61,841 bases of DNA, from contig JAFUOP010000011.1 of assembly GCA_017481875.1 (NCBI GenBank), positions 1 through 61,841 on the forward strand, written 5' to 3'. Below the pieces are notes generated by a model. The model did no database searches, was not told the DNA's origin, and worked only from the letters and a program-made list of their open reading frames with translations. Below, piece after piece: positions 20,194 through 43,472 of this stretch; positions within the stretch are counted from its first letter, which is position 1, and each line of letters opens with the position of its first letter. A program made the translations under genes and the position numbers. This stretch comes from Bacteroidaceae bacterium. Its GTDB lineage: Bacteria; Bacteroidota; Bacteroidia; Bacteroidales; Bacteroidaceae.

Positions 20194-21717
20194 TTATCTT
20201 TTATTTCCTGTACCATTGCGACGTGGAGCACCGCCACGAGTACCCTTACCTGTTCCACGAGAAGGAGCACCACCACCCTTACGTGCTGCATAACCACCGC
20301 GTGCAGGGGCAGCAGCGCGATACTCACGTTTTTTATCACGGGGAGCACCTTCGGTTGCTTCACCGCCCTGTTTTCTTTTTATTTTTTGAACAGCGCGAGT
20401 ATTGAAATAGGACTCCAATTCTCTGCGGCGACGCTTTGAGTCATCACTCTCAAGCGAAGCAAAGTTATCGGCTTCACGTTCAGAACGTGAAGGACGCAAC
20501 TCGCCATCGAGCCCTGTAAGGCGCGATTTACGTTTCAATGGAGCAAAATCCTTTTTCAACGAATTGCCCTCCTCCCTGAAACCTTTGAACTTTCCTTGGA
20601 AAAGTTCAAATTTACGAAACTCACAATCGAGGTCGCCGTTATAAAGAGGAATACGTGCCGAGGCTTTTAGACCAATTTTATCGAAGCAGTCGTAACTACT
20701 GCTTATAACCCACGCCTCATTCCCTTGGAAAGCATGTTTAAGACGCGAACCAAGGTTCTCATATATCTGCAATAGCTTATCGGAAACAAGACGCTCGCCA
20801 TAAGGAGGATTAACCACCATAATCGCACGCTTCTCGGGTTGTTCAAAATCCTTTATATCGCGACACTCCACCTCTATTATATCGCCCATCATTGCAGATT
20901 TTATATTCTTACGGGCGCAAGCAACCATACGGCCATCTACATCGTAACCATAAATTTTATGGTTAAACTCACGTTCCAAGGAGTCGTCCTCGTAGATTGA
21001 GCGGAAAAGGTCGCTGTCAAAATCTCTCCATTTCTCAAAAGCATACCCTTGACGATATACACCTGGAGCTATATTACGAGCAATGAGGGCTGCCTCTATG
21101 GGCAAAGTGCCGGAGCCACACATTGGATCTATGAAATCACACTCGCCGTTCCAACCGGTAAGCATTATGAGACCGGCCGCAAGCACCTCGTTAATGGGAG
21201 CGGCACCCGTTTCTACACGATACCCACGACGGTGCAAACTTTCACCAGAGCTATCGAAGGCAAGTGTACAATCCTCCTGCGCTATATGTATGTGAAATAT
21301 AAGATCGGGGTTATTAAGGCGCACCGAAGGACGACGGCCTGTTTTTTCATTAAAATAATCGGCAATTGCATCTTTTACACGGTATGCAACAAACTTTGAA
21401 TGGCGAAAAACATCGCTATAAACAACGAAATCGACCGAAAATGTAGAGTTTGCATCGAGATAGTTATCCCACTCTATGCTCTTTATAACATTATACACCT
21501 GGTCGGCATCTGATGCTTTGAAATGAAGTATAGGCTTAAGAATGCGAACAGCTGTTCTTAAATGGAAATTGGCCTTATACATAAGAGCTTTATCACCTGT
21601 AAACGACACCATACGTCGCCCTATCTGCACATTATTGGCACCAAGTGCCACCAACTCCTTCGCCAAGACCTCTTCCAATCCTTGGAAGGTTTTTGCAATC
21701 AATTCAAATTCCTCCAT
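20194..21717 (-). CDS. THUMP-domain RNA methyltransferase, RlmL-like, with a basic Gly/Arg-rich tail
   Basis: A 507-residue SAM-dependent methyltransferase. N-terminal ferredoxin-like and THUMP regions (about residues 1-160) precede a Rossmann methyltransferase with DPMCGSGTLPIEAAL and the catalytic VNPPYGERL. This matches the RlmL/TrmN group that makes m2G in 23S rRNA or tRNA; the exact target is not decided. The last 60 residues are an Arg/Gly/Ala-rich tail (ARGGYAARKGGGAPSRG) that looks disordered and RNA-binding. The ATG at 21717 is chosen because the protein then begins MEEFELIAKTFQGLEEVLA; the further in-frame upstream stretch reads as non-coding. Confidence 0.85.
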   Translation of the reverse strand: MEEFELIAKTFQGLEEVLAKELVALGANNVQIGRRMVSFTGDKALMYKANFHLRTAVRILKPILHFKASDADQVYNVIKSIEWDNYLDANSTFSVDFVVYSDVFRHSKFVAYRVKDAIADYFNEKTGRRPSVRLNNPDLIFHIHIAQEDCTLAFDSSGESLHRRGYRVETGAAPINEVLAAGLIMLTGWNGECDFIDPMCGSGTLPIEAALIARNIAPGVYRQGYAFEKWRDFDSDLFRSIYEDDSLEREFNHKIYGYDVDGRMVACARKNIKSAMMGDIIEVECRDIKDFEQPEKRAIMVVNPPYGERLVSDKLLQIYENLGSRLKHAFQGNEAWVISSSYDCFDKIGLKASARIPLYNGDLDCEFRKFELFQGKFKGFREEGNSLKKDFAPLKRKSRLTGLDGELRPSRSEREADNFASLESDDSKRRRRELESYFNTRAVQKIKRKQGGEATEGAPRDKKREYRAAAPARGGYAARKGGGAPSRGTGKGTRGGAPRRNGTGNKR

Positions 21718-21813
21718 AATATTCAATATTCCTAAACCAACAAAAAAGTAAAAGCCAAGCACCGCTACCGGCAAGCAAAAAAGGCACTCCTCTTTGCAAC
21801 TGCTTTGCTTTTG

Positions 21814-21821
21814 CAAATTTA
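21814..21821 (-). promoter_or_regulatory. possible promoter of the THUMP methyltransferase-purD operon
   Basis: Minus-strand TAAATTTG, 96 nt before the ATG, at the edge of the palindromic repeats. A TTG lies 22 nt further upstream, slightly too far, so this is tentative. Confidence 0.4.
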
Positions 21822-21825
21822 CGGC

Positions 21826-22016
21826 AAAAATTCCACAAACGAGCAAGATATATAAAGTTTACTTTAATATTTTACAGCGAGCGCAGTTAATTTTCACGCA
21901 CAAGCGTAAAAATTCCACAAACGAGCAAGATATATAAAGTTTACTTTAATATTTTACAGCGAGTGCAGTTAATTTTCACGCATAAGCGTAAAAATTCCAC
22001 AAACGAGAGCGTAGTC
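21826..22016. repeat. 82-bp modular palindromic repeats, two full copies and a diverged third
   Basis: Copies start at 21826 and 21908 and differ at two positions; a third begins at 21990 and diverges after ACAAACGAG. Each holds core 1 ACAAACGAGC, a palindrome TAAAGT-TT-ACTTTA, core 2 ACAGCGAGYGCAG and a second palindrome (AATTTT-ACGC-loop-GCGT-AAAATT). Cores and layout match the repeats at 41781-42170 while the stem sequences differ. Confidence 0.88.
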
Positions 22017-22037
22017 AAGCTCTAAAAAACAGGAAGG

Positions 22038-22159
22038 CATTGTGGCGTAAGTGCAGTAAGGCGTGGGCCCGTGGCCATGTGAACGGAAGGAGCCCAAAGC
22101 GAAGCGATGGGGGGATAGCACCCACAGGGGGTATACCTTAAGACACTTATGCCACAATG
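22038..22159. repeat. 122-nt element bounded by 16-bp inverted repeats
   Basis: CATTGTGGCGTAAGTG (22038-22053) pairs with CACTTATGCCACAATG (22144-22159), 15 perfect pairs and one G-T. Inside, TAAGG and GTGGG near the left arm can pair with CCTTA and CCCAC near the right arm. The interior is GC-rich compared with its surroundings. It could be a structured RNA or a small mobile (MITE-like) element; it starts right beside the third 82-bp repeat. Confidence 0.6.
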
Positions 22160-22246
22160 GCTACAAGAAGCACCACCAAGTAGCAAAAAAATGAACATAT
22201 AAATATAAGTTCCACAAAGAGAACAAGACAAAAGAGACGGACCGGC

Positions 22247-22277
22247 TTGATTTTTGCGATGAAAAGAGCTATTTTTG
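22247..22277 (+). promoter_or_regulatory. lytic transglycosylase promoter
   Basis: TTG (22247-22249), 20-nt spacer, TATTTTTG (22270-22277), 46 nt before the ATG at 22323. Confidence 0.72.
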
Positions 22278-22322
22278 CAATATAATAGAGAACATTTATT
22301 ACACAACGAGCGAACCAAACAG

Positions 22323-23300
22323 ATGAAATTTTTAAATAAGAAATTAACAATATGCGCGCTCACGATTGCCACAACAGCAACCATAGTGGCAATACTTGGT
22401 AACAGCGCAACAAATAAGTTCAACGTGCCATACTCGCAAATACCCTATTGCGCAGTTTCACCGCTGGTACCAAGCAGCATAACATTTGCCAACGAGGAGA
22501 TTGCACTGACACAGCAAGACAGACGCGAGCGTATGGACCGTGAGATTCTTGCATTCACATATTCTCACATAAACACCCTGCTACAGATAAAACGGGCCAA
22601 TCGGTTATTCCCTATTGTAGAACCAATACTGAAGAAATGCGGCATACCGGACGACTTCAAATATCTTATGATTATAGAGAGCAATGGAGATATTTATGCA
22701 CGCTCCACAGTGGGAGCTGCCGGTTTATGGCAATTTATGGACAAAACAGCCAGACAATACGGGTTGGAGGTAAACAACAACATAGACGAAAGATACCACA
22801 TTGAAAAGGCCACCTATGCCGCTTGCAAATATTTAAAAGAATCGTACGAGGAATACAAAGACTGGCTCACAGTGGCAGCAAGCTACAATGCAGGGCGCAA
22901 CAACATAAGCAAGCGCATTGAAAAGCAAAAAGAAGAGAAAGCTATAAACCTACAACTTGTTCCGGAAACATCACGTTACCTATTCCGCCTGCTGGCCGCA
23001 AAAGAGATTTTCAGCGACCCCATTAAGTATGGGTTTATAATACAGCATCGCGACCTCTACCCCACACTACCTATTGCAAAAACGATAACAGTAAATAAAA
23101 AAATCATAAACTGGCCCTCAATAGCCAAGAAACACGGCCTTACATACCTGCAGTTGCGCGAAGCCAATCCGTGGATACGAGAAGCGGAACTACCCAACAA
23201 AACCGGTAAAGAATACACCATACTTATACCGGACTCTTCTCGCCTGCACTACAACCCCGAAGATACAAAGGCACACAATAGCAAATGGGTTATAAAATAA
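22323..23300 (+). CDS. lytic murein transglycosylase, MltD-like, with a LysM-like C terminus
   Basis: A 325-residue exported SLT-domain protein that cleaves peptidoglycan glycan strands to 1,6-anhydro-muropeptides. An N-terminal signal or anchor (LTICALTIATTATIVAI) is followed by the SLT core: the catalytic Glu in YLMIIESNGD, then STVGAAGLWQFM and AASYNAGRNN. The C-terminal 50 residues (IAKKHGLTYLQLREANPWI) resemble a LysM peptidoglycan-binding repeat. I start at the ATG at 22323, downstream of the promoter; the longer reading frame from 22275 begins at the probable transcription start. Confidence 0.87.
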   Translation: MKFLNKKLTICALTIATTATIVAILGNSATNKFNVPYSQIPYCAVSPLVPSSITFANEEIALTQQDRRERMDREILAFTYSHINTLLQIKRANRLFPIVEPILKKCGIPDDFKYLMIIESNGDIYARSTVGAAGLWQFMDKTARQYGLEVNNNIDERYHIEKATYAACKYLKESYEEYKDWLTVAASYNAGRNNISKRIEKQKEEKAINLQLVPETSRYLFRLLAAKEIFSDPIKYGFIIQHRDLYPTLPIAKTITVNKKIINWPSIAKKHGLTYLQLREANPWIREAELPNKTGKEYTILIPDSSRLHYNPEDTKAHNSKWVIK

Positions 23301-39530: not shown

Positions 39531-41705
39531 TTAGTTACCCATTTCAGAAATAAACTTTACGCGTACCAAGCGTATCTCCTCCTCGCTATAGTCGGCACCA
39601 AGTTTGTCCATCGCAGCATCTATGTTATCGGTATCGGAGCTTTTGAAATAATCATATATTTCCTGAACATTTTCTTCGTCCATTATCTCCTCAAGGAAAT
39701 AATCGATATTCAACTTAGTACCCGAATAAACGATTGTTTCAACATCTTCCAACAAGTCCTCGAATTCCACACCAAGGCTTATTGCAAGATCGTCGAGAGC
39801 CACTTTACGGTCTATTGCATTTATAAGCCCTACTTTTAATTTTGATTTGTTGGCAACAGTGCGTACACGAAAATCTTCGGGACGGTCGATTTCATTCTCT
39901 TCGCAATGGCGTTTTATGAGTTTGCAGAACTCATCACCATAGCGTTTAGCCTTGCCCTCACCCACACCGGGAATATTTTTAAGTTCCTCAAATGTAATGG
40001 GATATGTTGTAGCCATAGCTTCCAACGAAGGATCTTGGAATATCACATAGGGTGGAAGCTCCAGCTGATTTGCAATCTTTTTACGCAAATTCTTAAGCAT
40101 TGCATACAACTCAGGATCTACAACAAACGTTCCACCGGTCTGCACAATTGTCTCCTCCTCGGTAAAATCCCTGTCTTCAACAATTTTGAATGACTGAGGA
40201 TTGTCCAAGAACTTGCGACCGGCCTTTGTTGCTTTCAAAAGGCCATAATTCTCTACATCTTTTTCGAGATACCCGGCTATAAGTGCCTGACGGATTACCG
40301 CATTCCAGCGTTTTACATCTTCATCGACACCACAACCAAAACACTCAAGCTCGTCGTGCATATGGGACTGTATATCGGCAGTCTCCTTGCCCATGAGCAC
40401 ATCTATAACATATTCTGTTTTAAAATTTTCTTTTAAAGCAAGAACTGCCTCAATAACCGTTTCAAGCAATTCCTTTGCCTCTACCTGTTTTTTGGGAGAG
40501 AGGCAGTTATCACAATTTCCACAATTTTCCACTTCGTAATTTTCACCAAAATAATGTAACAACAACTTTCTACGGCAAACCGACGATTCTGCATAAGCAG
40601 TAGTCTCGTGCAATAGCTGACGGCCGATGTACTGCTCTGCCAACGGCTTGCCTTCTAAGAATTTTTCAAGCTTTTGTAAATCTTTACTGTTATAATATGC
40701 AATACACTGGCCCTCGCCACCATCGCGGCCGGCACGGCCCGTTTCTTGGTAATAGCCCTCAAGGCTTTTGGGAATATCGTAGTGTATCACATAACGAACA
40801 TCTGGTTTGTCTATACCCATTCCGAATGCAATAGTAGCAACTATCACATCTATTTTTTCCATAATAAAATCGTCCTGTGTTTGCGACCTTACCACAGAAT
40901 CCATTCCGGCGTGATAAGCCTTGGCCGATATTTCATTGGCTTGCAGCACCTCGGCAAGCTCCTCAACTTTTTTACGGCTCAAGCAGTAAATTATACCGGA
41001 CTTGCCGGAATTGGCTTTTATATATTTAATAATATCTTTATCTACATTCTTTGTTTTGGGGCGTACCTCATAATAGAGATTGGGACGATTGAACGAGGAT
41101 TTAAAATCGGGGGCGTCCTGTATTCCAAGATTCTTTTTTATATCATCGCGCACCTTTGTAGTTGCAGTAGCTGTTAAAGCTATAACCGGCGCCTTCCCTA
41201 TCTCGTTTATAATGGGACGTATGCGACGGTATTCAGGGCGGAAATCGTGCCCCCACTCAGATATACAGTGAGCCTCATCTATTGCGTAGAAAGAAATCTT
41301 TATACTTTTTAGGAACTCCACATTTTCTTCTTTAGTCAGCGACTCCGGAGCTACATACAGTAATTTTGTCTTTCCCGACAACACATCGGCCTTAACCTCT
41401 TCTATCGCCTGCTTGGTGAGAGAGGAATTCAAAAAATGAGCGACACCATCTTCCTCGTTCAAGTTTCTAATGGCATCAACCTGGTTTTTCATCAAAGCTA
41501 TCAAAGGCGAAATAACTATGGCAGTGCCCTCCATTATGAGAGACGGCAACTGATAGCATAGCGATTTTCCCCCACCGGTAGGCATCAGTACAAAGGCATC
41601 ATTTCCTGCAAGGAGGTTTTTGATGACCGCTTCCTGATCCCCCTTAAATGTGTCAAAACCGAAGTTCTCTTTTAGAACCTCTGTCAATTTGTACTTCTTC
41701 GTCAT
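39531..41705 (-). CDS. recQ: ATP-dependent DNA helicase RecQ
   Basis: A 724-residue superfamily 2 helicase working 3' to 5' in recombinational repair. Walker A is MPTGGGKSLCYQLP, the DEAH box is AIDEAHCISEWGHDFRPEYR, and motif VI is QETGRAGRDGG. A zinc-binding set of Cys (CRRKLLLHYFGE, then CGNCDNC) and a winged helix follow, then an HRDC domain near residues 530-610. The C-terminal 110 residues extend past the E. coli form, as in other Bacteroidota RecQ. First gene of the eight-gene run. Confidence 0.94.
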   Translation of the reverse strand: MTKKYKLTEVLKENFGFDTFKGDQEAVIKNLLAGNDAFVLMPTGGGKSLCYQLPSLIMEGTAIVISPLIALMKNQVDAIRNLNEEDGVAHFLNSSLTKQAIEEVKADVLSGKTKLLYVAPESLTKEENVEFLKSIKISFYAIDEAHCISEWGHDFRPEYRRIRPIINEIGKAPVIALTATATTKVRDDIKKNLGIQDAPDFKSSFNRPNLYYEVRPKTKNVDKDIIKYIKANSGKSGIIYCLSRKKVEELAEVLQANEISAKAYHAGMDSVVRSQTQDDFIMEKIDVIVATIAFGMGIDKPDVRYVIHYDIPKSLEGYYQETGRAGRDGGEGQCIAYYNSKDLQKLEKFLEGKPLAEQYIGRQLLHETTAYAESSVCRRKLLLHYFGENYEVENCGNCDNCLSPKKQVEAKELLETVIEAVLALKENFKTEYVIDVLMGKETADIQSHMHDELECFGCGVDEDVKRWNAVIRQALIAGYLEKDVENYGLLKATKAGRKFLDNPQSFKIVEDRDFTEEETIVQTGGTFVVDPELYAMLKNLRKKIANQLELPPYVIFQDPSLEAMATTYPITFEELKNIPGVGEGKAKRYGDEFCKLIKRHCEENEIDRPEDFRVRTVANKSKLKVGLINAIDRKVALDDLAISLGVEFEDLLEDVETIVYSGTKLNIDYFLEEIMDEENVQEIYDYFKSSDTDNIDAAMDKLGADYSEEEIRLVRVKFISEMGN

Positions 41706-41729
41706 TTTACAATATGCCTATTTGCAAAC

Positions 41730-41761
41730 AAAGTTATAAATATCTCTATAAAACCGCCAAA
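41730..41761 (-). promoter_or_regulatory. recQ promoter
   Basis: Minus-strand TTG (41759-41761), 21-nt spacer, TAACTTTG (41730-41737), 25 nt before the recQ ATG, adjacent to the palindromic repeats. Confidence 0.68.
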
Positions 41762-41780: not shown

Positions 41781-42170
41781 CAAATATACATACAAACGAG
41801 CGGAAAATATGAAGTTACTTCAATTTTTACAAAGTGAGTGCAGGAAATATTCGAGATTTATCTCAAATATACAATATATATATTCACTTTAATCTCCGGC
41901 AGCGGTTCTCAAATATAGGAACAAACGAGCGAGAAATATCAAGCTTGCTTGGATATTTTTCACAGCGAGTGCAGAATATATTCGAGGTTTACCTCAAATA
42001 TAGGAACAAACGAGCGAGAAATATCAAGCTTGCTTGGATATTTTTCACAGCGAGTGCAGAATATATTCGAGGTTTACCTCAAATATAGGAACAAACGAGC
42101 GATATAAGCAAAGCTTGCTTTGATATTTTACAGCGAGTGCAGTCTTTTTTCGCGGGTTACTTCAAATATA
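41781..42170. repeat. modular palindromic repeats, four copies
   Basis: Cores lie at 41792-41843, 41921-41974, 42006-42059 and 42091-42132; the middle two belong to 85-bp units. Each has ACAAACGAGC, a palindrome of the type AAGYTTRCTT, then a GTGAGTGCAG or GCGAGTGCAG core, then a second palindrome. The palindromes vary but stay self-complementary: GAGAT/ATCTC in copy 1, GAGGT/ACCTC in copies 2 and 3. Each unit also has CAAATATA, a TATATTTG -7-like box on the minus strand. The interval holds no gene. Confidence 0.9.
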
Positions 42171-42192: not shown

Positions 42193-42240
42193 ACATATAG
42201 TAAAATACCCTCTCGCTCGAGAGGGTATTTTACTATATGT
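42193..42240 (-). terminator. tig-clpP-clpX terminator
   Basis: A perfect 23-bp inverted repeat (42193-42215 with 42218-42240) with a CCCTCTCG/CGAGAGGG centre, 9 nt after the clpX stop; the leftward RNA continues with TTTTTG. Confidence 0.9.
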
Positions 42241-42248
42241 AGATATTT

Positions 42249-43472
42249 TTATGCCATTGCTTTGAGAGCACCGCTTTTTGCCATTTGTGCCTCTGCATAG
42301 GATTTTGAAATTACGCAAGTTTTTTCGCCACTCGAAGGAATTTCAAACATTTTGTCCTGCATAATAGCTTCAACTATTGAACGCAAGCCACGCGCTCCCA
42401 ACTTATATTCTATTGCCATATCAACTATATAATCGAGAGCATCATTGTCGAAAGTAAGCTCCACACCGTCCATTTCCATGAGCCTTATATACTGCTTTAT
42501 TATGGAGTTTTTGGGCTCGGTGAGAATATTGCGCAGTGCACTACGGTCGAGCGGACGCAAAGAGGTGAGAATGGGTAAACGCCCCACAATTTCGGGTATA
42601 AGACCAAATGAACGCAAATCTTGCGGTGTTACATATTGCATCATATCACCCTTGTCTATCTTGAAATTGTTCTGCACAGAGTTGTAGCCCACAATGTGAG
42701 TGTTCAATCTTTGTGCAATTTTTTTCTCTATTCCATCGAACGCTCCACCACAAATAAACAATATGTGCTTGGTGTTCACTGGAATCATTTTTTGGTCGGG
42801 GTGTTTGCGCCCGCCCTGTGGCGGCACGTTCACAACCGAGCCTTCGAGCAGTTTTAAAAGCCCCTGCTGAACTCCCTCGCCACTTACATCGCGGGTAATA
42901 GAGGGATTGTCGCTCTTGCGTGCAATTTTGTCTATTTCATCAATAAACACTATGCCACGCTCGGCCTCCTCTACCTTATAATCAGCAACCTGCAACAAGC
43001 GAGTGAGAATACTCTCGATATCTTCGCCCACATAACCGGCCTCGGTGAGCACCGTTGCATCTACTATGGTGAAAGGCACCTTGAGCAGACGGGCAATGGT
43101 ACGGGCCAGAAGGGTTTTACCCGTTCCGGTGCTGCCAACCATCACAATATTGCTCTTTTCTATTTCTACATCGTCGCCACTGTCGCGTTGCAAAAGACGC
43201 TTGTAGTGGTTATATACCGACACCGCCAATGCACACTTTGCCGCGTCCTGCCCTATCACATATTCGTCGAGGAAAGCCTTTATCTCTTTGGGCTTGGGCA
43301 GCTCCTTCATCTCAAAATCATTTTTGGGCAAGAGAGACTCTTCGCGCAGAATGTTATGCGCCTGCTCCACGCAGTCGTTGCAGATGTAACCGGTCATTCC
43401 GGTCATGAGCAACGCCACCTGGTCTTCCGTTCTGCCACAAAAACTACAACGTTTTTTGTTCTTTTCCGCCAT
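42249..43472 (-). CDS. clpX: ATP-dependent Clp protease ATP-binding subunit ClpX
   Basis: A 407-residue AAA+ unfoldase that feeds substrates to ClpP. The N-terminal zinc-binding domain is [10 protein letters not shown] with a second pair in ICNDCVEQ. Walker A is [11 protein letters not shown], Walker B is [11 protein letters not shown], the pore loop is AGYVGED, and the ClpP-docking loop lies in [12 protein letters not shown] or nearby. Last gene of the operon, 3 nt after clpP. Confidence 0.96.

Follow-up and report, generated by a model that had tools for sequence, protein, structure and literature searches.

The repeats that lie between a recQ-like and a clpX-like gene in the DNA examined here probably belong to a family of short, non-coding, non-autonomous and structured mobile elements, which would target the −7 boxes of σABfr promoters, insert in one orientation and leave a box on each side. 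We observed a common anatomy, covariation in the stems, a bias in orientation relative to genes, orthologous sites free of the element (half of those compared having a box where the junction falls), arrays of mixed subtypes and a patchy distribution. The starting point was a 61.8-kb contig (the window, meaning the whole stretch of DNA analysed) from a 2.0-Mb genome that is 76% complete. A first-pass annotation of the window had described constant cores with co-changing palindromes, and read them as selection on a fold or as a mobile palindrome family of REP/RAYT type. That reading of fold and mobility is broadly correct but mistaken about RAYT, and it did not contain the flanking −7-like box, the orientation relative to genes or the third helix, in which the left box pairs with the right arm.

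The seven copies counted at that time were all found, four in the gap between ORFs 39531..41705 and 42249..43472, which we take to be recQ-like and clpX-like respectively, and three (one truncated) in a second array, giving six complete units and one truncated unit in the window (41781-42170 and 21825-22010; Table 1). Unit 1 stands as a separate single element (41781-41871), 38 bp from the array formed by units 2–4 (41910-42170). The palindromes quoted previously (GAAGTTACTTC, CAAGCTTGCTTG (twice), CAAAGCTTGCTTTG, GAGATTTATCTC and GAGGTTTACCTC) are present, but the counts of CAAGCTTGCTTG in units 2 and 3 are not independent because these units are identical across 85 nt. In its own genome the pattern ACAAACGAGC gave 20 matches against 0 for the reversed pattern, and the repeat family is therefore not a product of chance; a looser two-core pattern gave 34 against 0, several of the 34 being chance-like by inspection. 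Units also lay within about 100 bp of the ends of contigs C7, C23, C37 and C42 of this genome, so that the family has probably contributed to breaks in the assembly. Rfam gave no match at gathering score over the window arrays; between 41700 and 42260 there were sub-threshold matches only, mostly across a palindrome at 42193-42240. This palindrome, right past the clpX stop, is a perfect 23-bp inverted repeat with a 2-nt loop, is not of the repeat family and is probably a terminator.

The anatomy of the unit was determined from an alignment (A1) of 82 diverse units picked out of 229 distinct ones. The order is a left box (LA; TGCAAA[G/T]ATA), 2–3 nt, ACAA, ACGAGC, hairpin H1, GCGAGT, GCAG, a right arm (RA), a short stem-loop and a further LA. 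We refer to ACAA-ACGAGC, the variable hairpin H1 and GCGAGT plus its tail as U, and a unit U-RA-LA is approximately 72-86 bp long. H1 has a two-T loop, varying closing pairs and a bulge of about 3 nt, and both 1-nt and 3-nt bulges are common among the 82 units. RA is TATNTTCG, and is followed by a variable short stem whose loop is often TTTA; RA, loop and LA together make up hairpin H2, the 3′ arm of which (LA, CAAA[G/T]ATA) is the complement of the −7 box. A third helix can form between the left LA box and RA. Invariance of the cores is partly circular, because the search expression fixed the core letters and these motifs are part of the patterns or model that retrieved the units. In two other Bacteroidales families (f22 and f29), where units were matched by a covariance model, LA and ACGAGC/GCGAGT are kept in most units and the right core often ends in GTGCAC, GTGCGC, GTGAAA or GTGGAA. 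The first-pass annotation had spoken of fixed single-stranded recognition sequences, a description that is only partly right: ACGAGC and GCGAGT can pair in a 6-bp helix with tandem G.A pairs, and in many f22/f29 units the GCGAGTG of the right core does not continue with CAG. A second subtype, with another H1 (GGCGAGTG...CCGAGCC) and the same LA, RA and CGAG/CGAG pair, occurs together with the first in single arrays (L131, close to its unit; L136:1880-2200; L144:1700-2420).

Table 1. Features of the two arrays in the window and of the neighbouring genes.
Feature	Position	Strand	Basis
LA of unit 1, CAAATATA (− strand TATATTTG, TAnnTTTG box)	41781..41788	+	Sequence; LA logo
Unit 1 core and H1, ACGAGC...GTGAGTGCAG	41796..41843	+	Model R1, 83.7 bits (unit itself in the model)
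Unit 1 RA and H2, closing on the LA copy CAAATATA at 41864-41871	41844..41871	+	Sequence
First LA of the three-unit array	41910..41917	+	Sequence
Unit 2 core and H1	41925..41974	+	Sequence; pattern match
H2 joining units 2 and 3: RA, GAGGTTTACCTC, LA at 41995-42002	41975..42002	+	Sequence; DNA fold
Unit 3 core and H1, identical to unit 2	42010..42059	+	Sequence; pattern match
LA preceding unit 4	42080..42087	+	Sequence
Unit 4 core and H1	42095..42142	+	Sequence; pattern match
Distal LA CAAATATA, extra copy closing the array	42163..42170	+	Sequence; distal CAAANNTA in 100/161 arrays
CAAATTTA, −7-like box (TAAATTTG on − strand) adjoining the second array, possibly of the RlmL-like gene	21814..21821	+	Sequence; putative assignment
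Second array: cores 21839-21886 and 21921-21968, truncated third from ~22003	21825..22010	+	Sequence
recQ-like gene (presumed); first array upstream of it, antisense	39531..41705	−	Name from sequence, also in first-pass annotation
clpX-like gene (presumed)	42249..43472	−	Name from sequence, also in first-pass annotation
RlmL-like rRNA methyltransferase ORF; second array upstream	20194..21846	−	Pfam UPF0020, THUMP, RlmL_1st
SLT transglycosylase gene, opposite flank of second array	22275..23300	+	Pfam SLT

The RlmL-like ORF given in Table 1 is the longest frame and overlaps the second array; the true start of the gene is probably lower. The third unit of this array is broken after ACGAGA by about 200 bp (22003-22200), a segment that is absent at the corresponding site of genome G014; in G010 a different and shorter segment is present.

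Both hairpins were found to covary above shuffled and tree-based nulls in the 82 units, bearing out the earlier description of constant cores with co-changing stems. Pairing was present in 86.0% of 2181 cells of H1 and H2, and their joint covariation score was 0.285, against 0.145 ± 0.007 when the 3′ letters were shuffled (0/500 as high) and at most 0.119 with slid partners. With the tree-based null the scores were 0.251 against 0.109 ± 0.021 for H1 and 0.408 against 0.142 ± 0.032 for H2 (0/200 for each), and the helix of the left LA with RA scored 0.211 against 0.098 ± 0.035, with 1/200 as high. Changes on both sides were seen in 18 of 28 pairs, a count that alone says little because one slid version likewise gave 18. 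RNAalifold predicted no consensus pairs for the unit alignment. Folded as DNA, the H2 between units 2 and 3 had z scores of −2.98 on the + strand and −6.04 on the − strand, whereas H1 of one unit folded no better than shuffles (z −0.44 and −0.52). On the + strand H1 contained 76 G.T against 33 A.C combinations, where 134 and 84 were expected by chance from column make-up; C.A in H2 corresponds to a G.T wobble on the − strand, so that the two hairpins do not agree on a strand of action. GC skew was positive in 57 of 153 arrays, a figure confounded with gene orientation.

On the opposite strand LA reads TATNTTTGCA, and CAAA[G/T]ATA is the reverse complement of the Bacteroidetes −7 box TAnnTTTG. 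The σABfr consensus of B. fragilis consists of TAnnTTTG at −7 and TTTG near −33, as given in PMC7366714. Most units carry CAAA[G/T]ATA on both flanks, and the flank logo over 161 distinct arrays (112 of them single-unit) was TGCAAA[G/T]ATA. The motif CAAANNTA or its variant GAAGATA occurred no more than 16 nt before the first unit in 123/161 arrays, and CAAANNTA lay past the last unit in 100/161, beginning 19-21 nt after GCAG in 84 of these; letter shuffles of the distal flank, which serve as a control for that side only, contained it in 5.8%. The −33 spacing was counted in 76 arrays, those with a further ACGAG close by having been dropped. CAA (the −33 TTG) was found 18, 19 and 20 nt beyond the distal box, the expected −33 spacing, in 6, 7 and 10 of the 76, compared with a mean of 1.75 and a maximum of 6 at the remaining offsets between 5 and 39. 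It was also raised at offsets 0-4 (12, 7, 6, 5 and 7 of 76), perhaps because partial units, and not clean host flank, follow the box there. Inspection of the spacing by eye revealed no constant TTG such as a unit-borne promoter with its own −33 would have. Judged by motif, the flanking boxes would be working promoters.

The two boxes and the right arm of a unit are matched to one another. Among single-unit arrays the two LA copies were alike at the variable base in 41 of the 45 with readable boxes, and RA was complementary to the two copies, with G-T counted, in 38/44 and 30/36. Where RA reads TATNTT[C/T][G/A], it has TTCG in 107 of 111 cases. In a looser count of 149, the RA letter opposite the second letter of LA was C 111 times, A 28 times, T 7 times and G 3 times; the rarity of the pairing T suggests that RA may thereby be kept from being a promoter box, and hence a target, itself. 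LA and RA pair, as the terminal inverted repeats of a MITE would, yet LA is also the repeated target box.

The gene context of 153 arrays was obtained by simple ORF calling; some of the arrays are orthologous, so they are partly non-independent. Only three lay inside ORFs longer than 600 nt, as expected of multi-copy intergenic palindromes. In codirectional gene gaps 44 arrays were antisense and 10 sense (p 3e-6), and in divergent gaps the antisense gene was the nearer in 58/65 (median 77 against 256 nt, p 4e-11). The f22 and f29 arrays behaved similarly: the upstream gene was antisense in 20 of the 21 with a gene called, and a first LA was present in 22/22 and a distal LA in 15/22, although the latter counts are not fully independent since the model includes LA.

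The suggestion of a mobile family was strengthened by orthologous sites without the element, 16 of which were compared with their filled counterparts. A −7-like box was found at the junction in 8/16 (two exact and six positional, including one imperfect); the other eight (recQ, L135, L148, L153, L155, L100, L249 and L266) disagree or are ambiguous. Both exact junctions came from genome G024 compared with G041 (record RGIG7298). In the first, the two-unit locus L130 was set against L290, with a flanking gene 97% identical: ..tttgCAAATATAatgaatctttt.. becomes CAAATATA-[U-RA-CAAATATA]x2-atgaatctttt, the CAAATATA of the empty site being followed in the filled one by two U-RA-CAAATATA steps. In the second, L136 (three units of two subtypes) was set against L334 of G041, where the empty site holds CAAAGTTA. 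At the six positional sites just one of the two junctions aligns; these comprise two L144 arrays compared with G041, where the aligned boxes are CAAAATTA for the first LA and CAAATATA for the distal LA, as well as L106 vs L122, L108 vs L202, L120 vs L163 and L122 vs L106, where the box is imperfect (CGAATATA). A box on both sides would fit the target-site duplication of a MITE, but the inner box copies of L106 are CAAAGATA, whereas the distal copy is the CAAAGTTA of the empty ortholog, which suggests that the unit brings its own box. At L155/L114 the LA is out of line with the native CAAAGGTA and the distal LA is missing. An automated search for further empty sites returned mostly repeat-driven matches and added no usable site.

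The two window arrays differ in what they contribute. Units were present in the recQ-clpX gap of the window's genome and of G004, and absent from 15 of the 17 genomes compared. The −7-like box CAAAGTTA close to recQ (here 41729-41736), by its sequence the probable −7 box of that gene, was kept in 17/17, and the first LA of the array (CAAATATA) lies about 45 bp beyond it, farther from recQ. The two nearest relatives have no more than CAATATAT at the array position, and the flanks differ by about 100 nt. The recQ site shows mobility, not an exact target, and is the window site that fits the model least well. The second window array is common to the window's genome (G000), G014 and G010, with 2, 5 and 1 full units respectively. 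Arrays in which subtypes are mixed argue for the stacking of separate insertions over slippage alone.

The extent of the family proved larger than had been noted, and further copies were found both in the window's genome and in its relatives. The two-core pattern matched in 25/25 genomes of the genus (G000-G024), with reversed controls lower in each; the closest margin was 20 against 12 (G008). In 16 other genomes of the order the pattern gave 0-4 matches and the controls 0-2. At least 80 loci in named records have both cores; the matches listed were mostly from ruminant-hindgut Bacteroidales assemblies, and the few from distant phyla among them were chance-like. Of 295 genomes sampled from the order, model R1 matched in 5, namely the window's own, two of genus g24 and two of g31, in a search with stricter filters and at most 14 candidates scored per genome that may miss weak carriers; it gave no match in three genomes of other genera of the same family. 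Genus g24 had 6-29 matches in eight of nine genomes and none in the ninth (G046), which is 99% complete. In f22 and f29 the covariance model found 28 units in 22 arrays, compared with 6 arrays by the pattern alone. A literature search within a limited collection and set of terms returned no description of the hairpin family or of a palindromic unit targeting a −7 box, and the hairpin family is not described in the available portions of PMC7366714, PMC3733652, PMC6006769, PMC4596501, PMC5771137 and PMC12306157.

The enzymes that usually move palindromes were looked for in the carriers. A Y1_Tnp domain was detected by Pfam in only 2 of the 25 genus genomes (55-98% complete), and a protein search with the genus's own RAYT as query again gave 2/25. 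Both RAYT genes (G004 and G018; L069 and L070) are flanked by different palindromes; they encode about 180 aa, have flanks of the type GGCGGATA..TATCCGCC, GGGTC..GACCC, and appear to belong to a REP-like system of this genus that is independent of the present family. The tetranucleotide GTAG was absent from the invariant or nearly invariant columns of alignment A1. For reverse transcriptase (PF00078), 9 of 16 genus genomes gave no match, one of them (G007) being 94% complete, and reverse transcription was rejected as a general mechanism. Carriage by phages or plasmids was likewise rejected, as 286 bases of window array gave no match to either and the exact pattern none in viral contigs. Among 423 nearby ORFs no recurrent neighbour emerged as a partner; the most frequent groups were BspA-like repeat proteins, at 6 loci, and the RlmL-like gene, at 5, and ten neighbour genes scanned with profiles were mostly of unrelated families.

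Several other accounts of the family were weighed against these results. REP/REPIN elements mobilised by RAYT, a Y1 tyrosine transposase, are also small intergenic palindromes with many copies, single or clustered, with bulges, strong orientation and mobile behaviour, and a Bacteroidetes RAYT subclass with atypical structures is reported in PMC6006769. However, the scarcity of Y1, the other palindromes beside the two RAYT genes, the lack of a GTAG foot, the promoter-box target and the box at both ends all set the present family apart; RAYT was rejected as the mover, and we regard this account as very improbable. Spread could also need no dedicated enzyme, if template switching during replication or repair used the −7 boxes as 8-nt microhomologies and copied box-bounded units whole. 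The whole U-RA-LA steps at the exact sites, the mixing of subtypes and the carriers in which neither Y1 nor RT was detected would agree with this, but it leaves the retention of both hairpins and of the ACGAGC/GCGAGT cores unexplained, and gives no reason why this family spread and not other box-bounded stretches. Template switching between boxes and a single-stranded cassette recombining via the 8-nt box would both fit. We consider enzyme-free spread unlikely.

The two remaining accounts do without a mobile element or without selection on its fold. The units could be a selected cis-regulatory module, acting as tandem promoters or as leader hairpins bound by a protein or RNA, and multiplied by ordinary duplication. 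Their position and orientation at probable promoters, the covariation and the persistence of one site in three species (G000, G014 and G010) speak for such a role; their absence at recQ from most of the genomes compared, the unrelated families of most scanned neighbours and the g24 genome without a match speak against it, so that we think it rather unlikely. Alternatively, the co-changing stems might be the product of mutation bias, through quasi-palindrome correction by strand switching, in place of selection on a fold. Both hairpins are near-palindromes, and neither RNAalifold nor the DNA folding of H1 gave a signal. Such correction would, however, erase the common bulges of H1 and the mismatch in RA, where a pairing T is rare, and would not be expected to make the first LA and RA covary across the H1 that separates them; we judge this account to be unlikely as well.

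Some likeness to other known systems is evident. CGTC-tagged REPs, palindromes without a dedicated transposase whose hosts include Bacteroidetes (PMC3733652), resemble the family in lacking such an enzyme; unlike them, it has no CGTC in invariant columns, and has 72-86 bp two-hairpin units, a promoter-box target and a bias in orientation. BrickBuilt and other MITEs of Porphyromonas gingivalis are intergenic miniature elements of the Bacteroidales with internal tandem repeats and a link to promoters, but the BrickBuilt repeats are of 23 nt, the promoters are carried by the element and a −7-box target is not described in the part of PMC4596501 available. Two further classes share features with the family. 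Non-autonomous derivatives of IS200/IS605 (PATE-like) have hairpins near their ends and a fixed short target, which is retained at one side and has its counterpart at the opposite end, and insert in one orientation, all of which the present units share; the differences are that Y1 was not found in most carriers, that the box lies inside an H2 arm and that the target is a promoter box. Integron cassette arrays stack mixed units unidirectionally at one short site through a folded attC with a kept mismatch, again as seen here, but no cassette genes were seen, and the box CAAA[G/T]ATA is not the attC core.

For the reading that we favour, insertion at −7 boxes by a structured mobile element, the following steps would account for the sites. 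A unit would insert in a single orientation directly against a −7 box, after which the box would flank it on both sides and RA would be complementary to both copies. Provided that the outer box kept its native distance to the −33 region, the promoter could stay active and the unit would join the 5′ leader. Insertion might proceed via a folded single-stranded intermediate, or via a circle that uses the 8-nt box to pair or recombine, and would be carried out by a recombinase of the host or one acting in trans, for which the searches gave no candidate enzyme. Each new LA would be a fresh target, and therefore subtypes could stack in cassette fashion and arrays could grow or shrink. A more far-reaching version, which we put forward tentatively and with some doubt, is that the units represent a new, promoter-reading kind of mobile DNA: a cassette folded as a single strand would use boxes matched by RA, likely melted in open complexes, and recombinase or host machinery would rebuild the box, so that the promoter survives and the next target is supplied. 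Insertion into a core promoter box normally breaks the gene, and an element that rebuilds the box would explain how dozens are tolerated in a dense genome. If so, it would amount to a natural system for rewriting 5′ leaders in gut Bacteroidales, and transcripts would start a few nt past the distal TATNTTTG, inside the unit. With the usual palindrome enzymes not found in most carriers, what moves the element is a clear genetic question.

Related hairpins were also encountered in other settings. In L098, L099, L103 and L200 a longer, near-identical repeat is present in several copies, with one ACGAGC...GCGAGTGCAG unit enclosed by outer arms, which begin close to AAGATG and finish close to CATCTT; this is perhaps another mobile element built around the hairpin of the unit. 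Tandem palindromic repeats with CCGAGTGAGCG...GCCGAGCGAG occur at L104:5000-5300 and L204:16700-17118, and are apparently another member of a wider CGAG hairpin group.
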